From positions 124,001-188,000 of the forward strand of contig JALBWU010000002.1 in assembly GCA_022678445.1 (NCBI GenBank): a DNA stretch of 64,000 nucleotides, in the 5' to 3' direction. The notes beneath the pieces were generated by a model that made no database searches, was not told where the DNA came from, and saw nothing but the letters and a program-made list of their open reading frames with translations. Of this stretch, positions 5,606 through 36,366 are shown piece by piece (positions within the stretch are counted from its first letter, which is position 1; each line of letters opens with the position of its first letter). Origin of the DNA: Candidatus Aramenus sp. CH1. Its GTDB lineage: Archaea; Thermoproteota; Thermoprotei_A; Sulfolobales; Sulfolobaceae. Both the position numbers and the translations under genes were made by a program.

Positions 5606-5646
5606 GGTATTATTTAGCCTTTTGTGAATAAAGGTATTTCGTTTCT

Positions 5647-6600
5647 CTAAGACGAGTCGTTAAGGCTCTTTAGTGCTTCGCTGACGATCACCTTGAACTC
5701 TTTCACGCCCTCCTCATTCTTCACTGTCAGATTTCCTATCCCCACGTCCTTCGGGATGTCGCCCAAGGAGACGGCAATGAGGGCCTTGGGCTTAAACAAC
5801 CCCATGATCTTGTCTAGGCTGTCCGCCACGTCTATGTTATGTACTACGACTCCCCTGCCTATGCTCATGTTCAAGGAAACTCCTTCTTTCACCACGAGGA
5901 GACTGGGCCTAGTTAAGTAGAGGGGTGGCTCTATCCATACAGAGAACTCACCAAAGGGTGAGGAAAAGCTCAAGTTAGGCTCCTTCCTGTTCTGCTCGAC
6001 CCAAACGCAAGGCCTTCCACCGAACTGGGAAATTATCCTGTCAGAGCCCACCGCTTCCATAATAAGCGACGCCAGCCATAAGCTGAACACCCACCTCTTC
6101 ACTACGCTCAAGCAAGTCTCGCTACCCTTATATTGTATAACGCAACCTATAGGGCACCCAGTCTCTATGGACTCTATGATCCTTTTTCCCTTACCCATGA
6201 GGACTGCCTTGTCCTCGAAAACTCGCTTCACGTAGTCCGCCATGGGCATGTACTTGAAGTAGTACTCGGTGAGGCTCCTAACCGTGGTGTCTTCCACGTA
6301 CACTCTGTTGCAGAACTGTCTGGGATCAGCCTTCTTACCGCTCATGGGCTTTGGCGCTCCCTCCTCGTTGAAGTCCTCGCTGGAGTATACCTTTGCATAT
6401 ACGAAGCCCATGTTTGAGAACGAGAACTCCACTACTTTCTTGCCCTTTAAGTCCCCGTCGTCGAAGAAGTAGTATTCGTAAAATAGGTCCCTTGACCGGG
6501 TCCTGGCAACCGCGTGGAGGGGCCTCAAGTACTCCCCGTCGTCCACGTACAAGTACTGTGGGTTTCCTGTGCTCTCTGAGTTCCTCCTAATTTTTATCAT
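5647..6600 (-). CDS. Uncharacterised protein, possible degenerate PD-(D/E)XK nuclease-like partner of helicase
   Basis: A 317-residue soluble protein that I cannot place firmly. The C-terminal half has the run FSSPFGEFSVWIEPPL near residues 212-227 followed by RPSLLVVKEG, reminiscent of archaeal restriction-endonuclease-like proteins in which a Glu-containing strand is followed by a PD-hydrophobic motif. Here the expected Asp is Ser, so any nuclease site would be altered. The last segment (FKPKALIAVSLGD) also fits a Rossmann-like core strand. It is separated by 204 bases from the large helicase on the same strand, so the two may act together. The nuclease assignment is inference only. Confidence 0.5.
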   Translation of the reverse strand: MIKIRRNSESTGNPQYLYVDDGEYLRPLHAVARTRSRDLFYEYYFFDDGDLKGKKVVEFSFSNMGFVYAKVYSSEDFNEEGAPKPMSGKKADPRQFCNRVYVEDTTVRSLTEYYFKYMPMADYVKRVFEDKAVLMGKGKRIIESIETGCPIGCVIQYKGSETCLSVVKRWVFSLWLASLIMEAVGSDRIISQFGGRPCVWVEQNRKEPNLSFSSPFGEFSVWIEPPLYLTRPSLLVVKEGVSLNMSIGRGVVVHNIDVADSLDKIMGLFKPKALIAVSLGDIPKDVGIGNLTVKNEEGVKEFKVIVSEALKSLNDSS

Positions 6601-32667: not shown

Positions 32668-33174
32668 ATGTGCGATTACAAGGTCGTGGAGATAGAGAGA
32701 CCTGTGAGGAACGTCAGTAAGGTGGCCCTTATACCCAGGGAGGAGTTCAACAAGTTCTCGCAGGAGAACTACTTGAACGTGCTGAGGTTCACCAAGGAGA
32801 AGCTAAACATGAGCAAGAGCTACTATTATTACATCCTGGAACGCCTTAAGGAGTTGGGACTGATTTTCGAGAACGCCATCAACTTCAAGGCAGTCATACC
32901 CTTCCTAGTGGAGGACGGCTCCCTCAAGGTAGACAAGAGCATGATGTACGTTACCGGTAAGTACTTGATCTTCATGGATTCAGGCTCTTCGCGTTTTTCG
33001 TGTGGTAGCTGTCCAGTGAGGGCCCTCTGCTACTACGGCCTAAAGAGGGTGGCAAGCGAAATAGGGTTTAAGGTAAAGGGGAACTGCACCTTAAGCGTCT
33101 TGTGGGAGAGGGCAATAATCACTGTGTTTAACAACGTGATGTCGAGGGCAAACTCGCTGGCCTTGGACTACTGA
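32668..33174 (+). CDS. Cys-motif protein (C-x2-CP-x5-C), paralogue of 49572-50129
   Basis: A 168-residue protein. The first 95 residues look like a winged-helix or helical DNA/protein-binding module (FSQENYLNVLRF, YYYYILERLKELGLIFENAINFKAV). The C-terminal half has CGSCPVRALC plus a later GNCTLSVLWERA; these four Cys could bind Zn or an Fe-S cluster. A clear paralogue lies at 49572-50129 with the same order of motifs (SYFYYIVGKLRELGLLLDNAISFKAV, CSSCPVVETC, RNECLDRAW). Function unknown. It may form an operon with the solenoid protein and converges, with 1 base between, on the radical SAM gene. A redox- or metal-sensing regulator is one possibility. Confidence 0.65.
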   Translation: MCDYKVVEIERPVRNVSKVALIPREEFNKFSQENYLNVLRFTKEKLNMSKSYYYYILERLKELGLIFENAINFKAVIPFLVEDGSLKVDKSMMYVTGKYLIFMDSGSSRFSCGSCPVRALCYYGLKRVASEIGFKVKGNCTLSVLWERAIITVFNNVMSRANSLALDY

Positions 33175-33175
33175 G

Positions 33176-34369
33176 CTACACGAAGTGCCTTATTAGCTTC
33201 ACTACCTCCTCGTAGCTCTTCCTCCTGCAGTCTATCCCATAGAACCCCTTGCTTTCCAAGACCGAGAAGAACCTACAGCCACCCACGCACATTGGTAGGA
33301 ACTCGCAGTTGTCACACTTCCCCCTCCACACGTTCCTGGCCTCTCTGCCCGTGAACTTTCCGTTGAACTCCACAGTGCCGTCCTCCCTCAGCTTACCCTT
33401 AACGTAAAGGGGGTTCCCAGTGAAGGCCCAGCAGGGGTAGACAAGGCCCTCAGGATCCACTACTATGTCCTCGTCTACGTGGGCTACGCATATCCCCAGC
33501 CTAAACACCTCTTGCGGTATCTCAAAGCCCTCCTCCTTGGCTATCTCCCAAACCCGAGAGAGCACCTTCCCCTCCTCTTCCTTGGGCATGACGTTCTCCC
33601 AGTACTCGTTCCTGAAGACGTTCTCGTGTACTATGTGGGGGTCAACCCTTACCTTGGTAATGCCCTGTTTCTTGAGGTGGGCGAAGAGGTCCCTTACCTC
33701 CTCGACGTTCCTGTAGTCCACGTTCACCCTAAGTACCACGTTGGTGTGGTCTTGGGCGTAGGCTAAGTTCTTGACTATGACGTCGAACGAGCCCTTCCCT
33801 CCGACGAAATACCTCCTCTTGTCGTGTACTTCTCTAGGGCCGTCTAGGGTTATTTGCACGTGGGATAGACCTAGGGAGTTCAACTTGTCCAGTACCCAGG
33901 GCGTCAGGAGGGAGCCATTGGTCACGACGCTAAAGGAGTAGTTCAGGTCTGACAACTGCTTGGAGATCTCCTCTATCCTCCTCATCTCTAGGAGGGGCTC
34001 TCCGCCGAAGTATGTGACCCTTACCCTGCTCTTTGCGTTCTTCCTCACGTAGTTTACGAATCCCCTCACCACCTCGTCCCTCACTCCGCCTTTCCTCCTG
34101 AAAGCCTTCTGGAAGCAGTAGACGCAGTCGAAGTTGCAGTCGTAAGTCAATACTAACGTGGGCTCTAGGACGTCCTTCTTCACTAGCTTTTCTGGGTCAA
34201 AGTCGCCGTCGCTAAAGCCCTCCTCCACTACCTCGCGGAGGTTTGGCGGTATCTCTCCCCTCCTAAGGGCGACCATTTCCTCCTTAGACACCCTGATGGC
34301 GTAACCGGTTAAAGTGTTGAAGACCACGTTATAATCGTAAAGAAAAACGTTGAATTTAGAGAGTTTCAC
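33176..34369 (-). CDS. Radical SAM/SPASM domain peptide-modifying enzyme
   Basis: A 397-residue enzyme. Residues 1-65 form an N-terminal module typical of peptide maturases ([19 protein letters not shown]). The AdoMet cluster motif is CNFDCVYC (Cys78, 82, 85). GGEPLLE follows, then a C-terminal SPASM region: [18 protein letters not shown]-x5-C-x3-C in [14 protein letters not shown], and a last IDC, enough Cys for two auxiliary [4Fe-4S] clusters. Such enzymes make thioether or C-C crosslinks in ribosomal peptides or activate sulfatases; no sulfatase is nearby. Start is GTG 34369, with GAGGTG overlapping the TGA of a 23-codon frame just upstream. Confidence 0.9.
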
Positions 34370-34381
34370 TCCCCTTCCACC

Positions 34382-34453
34382 TCACTGTCCCCATGAAGGG
34401 GAGTAGTTGCACCTTCCCATTTTCCTCTCGATCTTGACTACTTTTCTTTCCAT
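34382..34453 (-). CDS. Candidate 23-residue RiPP precursor peptide
   Basis: ATG 34453 to TGA 34382 encodes a basic N-terminal part MERKVVKIERKMGR and a tail CNYSPSWGQ. The stop lies 12 bases before the GTG of the radical SAM/SPASM gene, and the Shine-Dalgarno-like GAGGTG of that gene overlaps the peptide stop codon, indicating translational coupling. A TTTATCC TATA-like box lies about 24-28 bases upstream of the ATG. Length is in the range of PqqA-like precursors. A leader followed by a short Cys/Tyr/Trp core fits RiPP substrates, but the ORF is short enough to arise by chance, so it needs conservation evidence. Confidence 0.5.
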   Translation of the reverse strand: MERKVVKIERKMGRCNYSPSWGQ

Positions 34454-34684
34454 GGGAAAGAGATACATGCTGTGGATAAAGGCATATCACTAAACAGTCC
34501 AAGGCGAGAAACGTGAAACCTTGTTAAATCTGAGCGAGACGTTAGTTTGACCTTTTAATCGACGCATAGACAGAAGGTGGTGGCCTGAATGCTATGCAGG
34601 GTATCGTAAAGTATCTGGGCTTTTACGTTTGGCTCCGATTTCAAACCCTTCGTATTTAAACCTTCGCTGGTACTATAAAACATA

Positions 34685-35257
34685 ATGTCAAACCCTTACC
34701 TCTACAACGCCGTCTGTAGGCCAGTTGGTTTGGGCTCAAAAATAGTCCAACTGAGGGTAGGCCACCAGCTAGACATGAAAGCGTTGAGCAAGGACCTTAA
34801 GGTGCTCTTTAGATCCCAGGGTTTTACAGTGTACACAATCTACAGTCCTAACGTGTTAGTCCTGCAGATCCACGCTTTTGGGGTGAGGGGGCACTACTAC
34901 ACAGTGAAGGTATGTCAAAGCGGTGGCGTCGTCCTAGTTGAGGCTGGGATAACTAACGGGAGGGTGCTGTTAGAGGAGGCAGGAGTATCTTCCGCAATAG
35001 GGACTATTTCCGACCTACTTCTGCACGACAAGCTGGTAGCGTTAATATCTGGGGCCTTTGCAGGGGTTGACGTGGCAAGCGTGTTGGGAAGTTACCAACA
35101 GGAGGAGGCGATAATACAACAAGTAATTAACACCATATACTCTTATGGTGTTCAGCCAAGTAATGTTCAGGCAAACTCTCCCCGTTGTCCCAACTGCGGT
35201 CAGGAGGTTAAGGAGTACTTCAAGTTCTGTCCAAACTGCGGTTACAGGCTAAAGTAA
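34685..35257 (+). CDS. Zinc-ribbon protein of unknown function
   Basis: A 190-residue protein. The C-terminal 25 residues hold two Cys pairs, CPNCGQEVKEYFKF then CPNCGYRLK, a typical zinc ribbon. The N-terminal 140 residues have alternating beta strands and helices (VLVLQIHAFGVRGHYYTVKV, LISGAFAGVDVASVLG) with no family I can name. Its last 16 bases overlap the convergent next gene. A role in nucleic-acid or protein binding is likely but unproven. Confidence 0.7.
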   Translation: MSNPYLYNAVCRPVGLGSKIVQLRVGHQLDMKALSKDLKVLFRSQGFTVYTIYSPNVLVLQIHAFGVRGHYYTVKVCQSGGVVLVEAGITNGRVLLEEAGVSSAIGTISDLLLHDKLVALISGAFAGVDVASVLGSYQQEEAIIQQVINTIYSYGVQPSNVQANSPRCPNCGQEVKEYFKFCPNCGYRLK

Positions 35258-36366
35258 GAGCGAACAAGCAGGAGAAGGAACTTGAAGAAGTTCCTCCTGA
35301 GGTTTAGCCTCTTTAAGTACTCTCCCTTGGTCTCCGCGTTCTTCCTTAAGACGTAGCCGGCGACCCTTGCAAACTTAAATCGGAGTAACCCCCTGTTATG
35401 GAGCCAGCACTGGTAGAGCACTTCGTAGTACTTAGGGGTACTGGGCAAAGGGATCAAAATAGACTTAAAGCCAATGTACTCAGTCACCTTCTCTTCCTCT
35501 ACGTATATGGTAGGGTAGATGAAGTTCTCGTTGAGCTCCTTAAGTACTTCTCTCTCAATCTCTTCTACCCTGCACGAGCTCCGCTTGCTAAGGAGCGCTG
35601 GAGACCTCCAGTTTCGTTCGTTTAGCCCCAGGATCTTCCTTACCGCCTGGAGGTCCACATTAGCTGAGGACTCCTGGGTTATGTGGGAGAAGTAGACCTC
35701 TCCGTACTCCTTTGCAGTCCTCAGGAGGACTTCGAGTCCCTCGCCGTAAGAGAAGAGGTCGTTGGAGATCAAGTTCACCCTCCCCCTTCTGGACTGAACC
35801 CTCAGCTCTTCCTTCACCACGTTCATTGGTACCCTTCTCTCGCCTCTTATTACCTCTACCTCCGATAGGGAAGAGGGCGACTTTATTGGAAAGAACCTCT
35901 TCGCCTTCTCTCCGTAGACTACTTTGGGGAACTCCCCTTGACGTAATAGCTTTGGAAGGGTCTCCTCAGCCTCTCCCACGAATACCGTGTCCACCCAGTC
36001 TGGAGGGTCTAACGCCAGTTCCCAGCTCCCTGGTCCCCCAACTATAACCTTAAACTTCCTTCTCAACACCCTTAGCCTCTCTGAAAACATCCGGAAAGCC
36101 TCAACGTGGAATGGAGGATCTCCGAAGACCTCCTGAAGCCCCCTGGAGACCTCTGTCATCCCAAGCGGGTCGTTGACGTATACCCCTAGGACTCCGCCAG
36201 GGAGATTCTCTAGGGACTCTGGTCTAACCACTTTAGCTCCTGCTATTGTCTCTATCTTCCTAACTCCGTAGGGCGGGTACTTGTTCTTTCTGTAAAAAGG
36301 TGGAATTAGCCTCCTTGGAAGTGAGGAATACGAGTAAAAGGTGCCCTCGTCAGCTGTGATGAACAC
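35242..36366 (-). CDS. Cobalamin-radical-SAM-like protein lacking cluster cysteines
   Basis: A 374-residue protein with the N-terminal layout of B12-binding radical SAM proteins: opening ITADEGTF, then VIVGGPGSWELAL and VDTVFVGEAEETLPKLL, the usual Rossmann-like cobalamin-binding half. Where the family has a Cys-x3-Cys-x2-Cys motif after (E/S)xxRGC, this protein has VEVIRGERRVPMNVVKEEL. Only two Cys exist in the whole chain, neither able to form the motif. So it probably lost AdoMet-cluster chemistry and may be a decoy, regulator or scaffold. The frame is intact. It overlaps the zinc-ribbon gene 3' end and shares a strand with the YkgJ-type gene. Confidence 0.72.
   Translation of the reverse strand: MFITADEGTFYSYSSLPRRLIPPFYRKNKYPPYGVRKIETIAGAKVVRPESLENLPGGVLGVYVNDPLGMTEVSRGLQEVFGDPPFHVEAFRMFSERLRVLRRKFKVIVGGPGSWELALDPPDWVDTVFVGEAEETLPKLLRQGEFPKVVYGEKAKRFFPIKSPSSLSEVEVIRGERRVPMNVVKEELRVQSRRGRVNLISNDLFSYGEGLEVLLRTAKEYGEVYFSHITQESSANVDLQAVRKILGLNERNWRSPALLSKRSSCRVEEIEREVLKELNENFIYPTIYVEEEKVTEYIGFKSILIPLPSTPKYYEVLYQCWLHNRGLLRFKFARVAGYVLRKNAETKGEYLKRLNLRRNFFKFLLLLVRSYFSL

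Follow-up and report, generated by a model that had tools for sequence, protein, structure and literature searches.

A short conserved peptide gene before a SPASM radical SAM gene: a candidate precursor and maturase pair of Sulfolobaceae

Introduction

Does a 23-codon frame that lies directly before a radical SAM gene encode the substrate of that enzyme, and what might the two genes make? The question is raised by a locus in the 64,000-nucleotide stretch of Candidatus Aramenus sp. CH1 that was analyzed here (referred to as the window). In the literature searched, haloarchaeal lanthipeptides are the only archaeal RiPPs that have been shown experimentally, and the radical SAM RiPPs of archaea are predicted clusters (PMC12144867). 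The system proposed here would resemble the haloarchaeal lanthipeptides in joining an archaeal ribosomal peptide to a dedicated modifying enzyme but would differ from them in chemistry and phylum.

Results

The precursor peptide gene occupies 34382..34453 on the minus strand, with its ATG at 34453 and its TGA at 34384-34382. Its 23 codons plus TGA correspond to MERKVVKIERKMGRCNYSPSWGQ, which can be divided into a leader-like part, MERKVVKIERKMGR, and a putative core, CNYSPSWGQ. The gene of the putative maturase (33176..34369, minus strand, 397 aa) begins with a GTG at 34369, 12 bases 3' of the peptide stop, and its open reading frame ends at 33176. A Shine-Dalgarno-like GAGGTG (34378..34383, minus strand) overlaps the peptide stop codon, and a TATA-like box, TTTATCC (34474..34480, minus strand), spans bases -27 to -21 relative to the ATG of the peptide. 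This layout, including the spacing, the overlap, and the box, had been described in the first-pass annotation, and the coordinates confirm it. Comparable TATA-like boxes were found at about the same distance from the peptide ATG in four other loci (L032-L034 and L036), a position fitting a leaderless peptide transcript. The assignment of the DNA to Sulfolobales is supported by an archaeal SRP RNA in the window's genome and by its two Sso7d-type genes (PF02294), a family which, among 14 control genomes, was matched only in Sulfolobus acidocaldarius.

A search of 60 relatives recovered an intact or near-intact maturase gene in 16 genomes, all of them from the window's family, Sulfolobaceae. The copy in G019 begins at a contig edge, which leaves 15 full-length orthologues, from six genera, whose upstream DNA could be used; the other 14 full-length orthologues have 60-79% identity to the window copy. 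The first-pass annotation had named an alignment of these upstream regions as its check and the lack of a conserved short frame, or frameshifts in close relatives, as the results that would count against it. The frame was found directly before the maturase gene in 15 of 15 loci, with 1-13 bases between the peptide stop and the maturase start codon in all of them, a bias toward synonymous substitution, and the Cys, Tyr, and Trp kept. When the sequences are anchored at the stop codon, their final 20 codons give (K/R)-(V/I/L)-(V/I/L)-(K/R/V)-I-(E/Q)-R-(K/R)-(M/T/A/Y)-G-R-C-(N/G)-Y-S-P-S-W-G-(Q/E/D). GRCxYSPSWG is invariant across the 15 loci, and only two positions of the core vary, namely, the N/G after the Cys and the final Q/E/D, of which the latter is chemically conserved. 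The conservation of this final residue adds a candidate acceptor that is invisible from one genome.

The pattern of substitution indicates purifying selection in the frame. The pN/pS ratio is 0.20 in frame 0 (pN of 0.16 and pS of 0.78, with synonymous differences near saturation), whereas the two shifted frames give 2.1 and 1.2, and 19 of the 20 aligned codons vary at the third position, compared with eight at the first and six at the second. The codon of the Ser before the Trp even switches between TCN and AGC/AGT, an exchange that needs two base changes, with the Ser retained. Judged from the conservation of the frame, the third-position bias, and the pN/pS ratio, the peptide is therefore a translated and selected product; a chance open reading frame is ruled out by the 15-fold conservation together with the codon bias.

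The enzyme carries the radical SAM motif CNFDCVYC (34115..34138, minus strand; C78-x3-C82-x2-C85), whose three cysteines are invariant in the 15 orthologues, and a SPASM domain (33227..33490, minus strand) with the canonical seven cysteines, C294-x13-G-x4-C313 ... C352-x2-C355-x5-C361-x3-C365-x15-C381, all invariant as well, so that the set of ten cluster cysteines is complete. RiPP maturases lead its NCBIfam ranking, with CefB (227 bits), the geopeptide maturase (220 bits), TIGR04463 (163 bits), PapB (147 bits), and Clo7bot among the first. However, the enzyme stays far below every NCBIfam equivalog cut-off, and no characterized chemistry can therefore be transferred to it. A PDB search with a profile of 15 rows placed CteB first (5wgg, E value of 3e-27, profile positions 11-373), and Foldseek with the predicted model also returned CteB as the top match (E value of 1e-15), with ChlB with its leader and SuiB with SuiA matching too. 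These profile and model comparisons bear out the earlier assignment to the radical SAM/SPASM class and identify the maturase as a genuine member of it, with peptide maturases as its closest relatives.

The N-terminal segment (34184..34369, minus strand) is a putative RRE. CteB binds its leader at an N-terminal RRE (PMC8326336), the RRE is defined by a β3-α3 winged-helix order (PMC12710340), and the alignment with CteB starts at position 11 and so covers most of this domain. In the predicted model the domain shows three strands followed by helices, which is the RRE order, at low to medium pLDDT (blocks of 38-75; mean of the whole model, 69.6). Since the confidence of the model is moderate, the RRE is to be read only as a prediction.

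Among the sampled genomes, the pair is restricted to Sulfolobaceae. The pattern G-(R/S)-C-x-Y-x-P-x-W-G matched 12 of 398 genomes sampled from the phylum, once per genome; ten of these matches are adjacent to the maturase, and the remaining two, in G209 and G068 of another family, represent the same identical site. In the copy examined (L050), this single site runs antisense inside a riboflavin-synthase-like gene, and we regard it as a chance match; six matches on viral contigs were set aside as out of context. Across 197 genomes of the class, the enzyme profile detected maturase orthologues only within the family. Three order-level relatives (G178, G374, and G384) carry a different SPASM family of 440-464 residues, with an ABC transporter gene adjoining at least one of them. 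Plasmid records yielded no close maturase (best identity, 30%), and a contig scan with the maturase, in a sample that may omit the near relatives of the window, matched outgroups with other precursors and no Sulfolobaceae.

Within the family, the pair is present in about half of the sequenced genomes (intact maturase in 16, with 15 others lacking it). The maturase tree contains two fully supported clades (100/100), which correspond to an N-type core (CNYSPSWG) and a G-type core (CGYSPSWG). The genus g5 is split between the two, which suggests that the pair has been transferred horizontally within the family. In G001, a sister species of the window's genus, a single in-place deletion fuses peptide codon 15, after GRC, to maturase residue 287, removing both the peptide core and the catalytic domain; the remnant lies at 5617-5949 on the minus strand of L047 (G001:C19) and represents a natural knock-out of the peptide and maturase system. 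In G018, only a maturase stub of about 35 residues is left. Because of this deletion and this stub, the pair is accessory and dispensable.

No gene for a leader peptidase, an exporter, or immunity is fixed beside the pair in the compared loci. The convergent neighbor (32668..33174, plus strand) encodes 168 aa with C112-x2-C115-x5-C121. It belongs to a family of 168-200 aa with an invariant N-terminal MC and a C-x2-C-x5-C motif, which is present in 30 of 31 genomes of Sulfolobaceae (e.g., G000:C2:173650-174129) and in several of them recurrently adjoins radical SAM genes, including those of the maturase, the U32/MBL clusters, and the AhbC/D-like clusters. This neighbor matched no Pfam or NCBIfam family above the cut-off, and a fold search of the PDB gave no usable match; it is possibly a regulator of radical SAM genes. 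A palindrome-like sequence, CGGTAAACCCCGTTAAAG, occurs upstream of the genes of this family, and it is resembled by CGTGAAACCTTGTTAAAT at 34512..34529, 59-76 bases before the peptide ATG. Sites like CGGTAAACCCCGTTAAAG occupy -77 to -59 from the peptide ATG in most loci, and for 7 of the 15 loci a score as good was reached by no more than 5 of 300 shuffles. The proposal that CGTGAAACCTTGTTAAAT is a candidate operator is suggestive only. Two genes away from the pair, a 374-aa protein (35242-36366, minus strand) gave a very weak match to TIGR04013 (B12-binding/radical SAM; E value of 0.001), and L035 and L037 also have relatives of it close to the maturase.

Discussion

The two genes very probably form a minimal RiPP-type pair of precursor and maturase. 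In the mechanism that we propose, the 23-residue peptide would be the ribosomal precursor and its basic, conserved N-terminal part the leader. The 397-residue radical SAM/SPASM enzyme would bind this leader through its N-terminal domain and modify C-(N/G)-Y-S-P-S-W-G-(Q/E/D), the core at the C terminus. A ring closure with the loss of two hydrogens would be the likeliest reaction, and the product most likely a crosslinked nonapeptide, with either a thioether or a cyclophane. After a presumed cleavage, it might be cofactor-like or secreted. The first-pass annotation had proposed a modified peptide in Sulfolobales with a bond at the Cys, Tyr, or Trp; the gene pair and the enzyme class are supported by the 15 of 15 loci and the CteB-like SPASM architecture, whereas the modification and the residues that it joins are what we infer.

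If the two genes are precursor and maturase, the chances that the single Cys forms a thioether to a non-alpha carbon of an acceptor are about evenly balanced. The first choice of acceptor would be the final Gln/Glu/Asp, giving Cys-X7-(D/E/Q), followed by Ser, Tyr, or Trp; a bond from the Cys to the last residue would leave seven residues between them and close the ring around YSPSW. On the same premise, the main alternative is a C-C or C-O crosslink at Tyr or Trp, which we consider possible but less probable, and some other modification is less probable still. A downstream Asp or Glu as the acceptor is known chemistry, since PapB forms Cys-Xn-Asp/Glu thioethers with n of 0-6 (PMC9413430). The peptide resembles the PapB substrate in having a Cys and a downstream Asp/Glu-type residue, but its Cys-X7 spacing exceeds this range, and it contains one Cys-X7-(D/E/Q) compared with the six Cys-X3-Asp/Glu of that substrate (PMC9413430). 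The enzyme likewise reaches only 147 bits over residues 71-366 with the PapB model, below the cut-off of 340 bits.

The nearest solved relative, both by profile (E value of 3e-27) and by predicted fold, is the thioether-forming maturase of the CteA/CteB system, a SCIFF ranthipeptide system (PDB 5WGG/5WHY), with which the enzyme shares the radical SAM core and the SPASM C terminus and may, going by the prediction, share an N-terminal RRE. However, CteA has six Cys in 45 residues versus a single Cys in 23 residues here, and the score of 94.8 bits with the SCIFF maturase model TIGR03974 (cut-off, 425) places the enzyme outside the SCIFF family. The models for CefB (Cys-every-fifth, NF038107; 227 bits versus a cut-off of 600) and the geopeptide maturase (TIGR04280; 220 bits versus 400) match over nearly the full length, but the scores lie below both cut-offs and the precursors of these two families have no motif in common with CxYSPSWG. 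The peptide itself had no match to NCBIfam models even at an E value of 10, and we found no report of it in the literature searched, subscription papers and preprints being outside that search.

It could also be proposed that the product is an intracellular peptide-derived redox or metal-binding cofactor, in the manner of PQQ and mycofactocin, rather than a secreted natural product, with a metallo-hydrolase and AhbC/AhbD-like radical SAM enzymes completing or using it. We regard this as a tentative and somewhat unlikely possibility. The whole precursor, including the leader, is conserved, and its core is invariant over enzymes that are only 60% identical, unlike in diversifying toxins; the pair is single copy, and the lack of a fixed exporter or immunity gene beside it points the same way. 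PqqB is an MBL-fold protein, and an MBL-fold hydrolase family was found in 16 of 16 genomes with an intact maturase versus 7 of 15 others (Fisher p of 0.0008, uncorrected for kinship). In L044-L046 its gene is the next one downstream of the maturase, and in L033 it is divergent; in L039-L043 it is two genes from the maturase, beyond a U32-like gene, in a divergent cluster where it adjoins two AhbC/AhbD-like radical SAM genes. This co-occurrence and placement keep a cofactor-type role open. However, the MBL and U32 genes occur without the pair too, the U32 gene of the cluster being present in 25 of the 31 Sulfolobaceae genomes, the MBL gene is far from the pair in several genomes, and no enzyme dependent on such a cofactor was identified. 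In addition, about half of the family lacks the pair, which has been lost twice and therefore cannot make a universal cofactor. The cluster itself is conserved (L039 2835-6805 and equivalents such as G000:C6:102883-106291) and comprises a U32-family protein, the MBL-fold hydrolase, and AhbD/TIGR04053-like and AhbC/NirJ1-like radical SAM proteins.

The likeness to PQQ and mycofactocin extends to a very short, strongly conserved, single-copy precursor with a SPASM enzyme, accompanied in the genome by an MBL-fold protein, but the enzyme here is closer to ranthipeptide maturases, and PqqE (TIGR02109) is not among its best 25 NCBIfam matches. PqqA is characterized by a Glu-x-x-x-Tyr motif and MftA by a C-terminal Val-Tyr; both are absent from the peptide, and no equivalents of PqqC, PqqD, PqqF, MftB, or MftE were noticed at the locus. 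The full form of this proposal, by analogy with the origin of PQQ and mycofactocin from PqqA and MftA, is that the pair supplies thermoacidophilic archaea with a new peptide-derived cofactor, a crosslinked C-x-Y-S-P-S-W-G-(Q/E/D) finished or used by the MBL-fold hydrolase and the U32/AhbC-AhbD-like set, and this we consider rather unlikely.

The strict conservation of one Cys and its flanking residues would also fit an unmodified small subunit, e.g., with the Cys as a cluster ligand, of an enzyme acting on another molecule, but the enzyme already has its full set of ten cluster cysteines and relatives of the enzyme class have separate Cys-bearing open reading frames upstream, which makes such a role very unlikely. 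It is highly improbable that the very short frame, although placed immediately upstream for translational coupling, is a regulatory leader peptide acting by coupling or attenuation rather than a substrate, as selection acts on its amino acids with synonymous codons free, including the TCN/AGY swaps of Ser, the coupling distance varies, and it has no run of a single amino acid and the window no Rfam element. A role of the Cys sulfur and the Tyr ring in the precursor chemistry of caldariellaquinone is unlikely, since this quinone is general in the family and the pair is patchy.

The reading as precursor and maturase thus describes a new, lineage-specific form of short radical SAM RiPP, in which the gene pair and the enzyme class are supported by sequence comparison, and a candidate modified-peptide family without a counterpart in the models and literature searched. 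It would be a complete two-gene radical SAM RiPP candidate in archaea, with a precursor that is unusually short, nearly invariant, and limited to a single Cys. The product would be a facultative trait of the family, probably moving horizontally within it. Sulfolobaceae are hot-acid archaea and include genetically tractable species, and natural knock-outs of the pair already exist. Should the product prove to be a cofactor, the archaeal repertoire would gain one derived from a peptide.

Short open reading frames with Cys likewise lie just upstream of the nearest relatives of the enzyme from outside the family; four of these relatives have, for example, ...AQCCAK..VxGCHD. In two relatives from Omnitrophota (L061 and L065), a similar short peptide, MEII..GT(D/E)DV..M..CC(F/W)P.GT, precedes the SPASM gene and may represent another precursor family, and in a relative from Bacteroidales (L062), a Cys-rich open reading frame of 69 residues (..IDEDQSSCKSKCYSWYCVSDC..) lies upstream of the SPASM gene.
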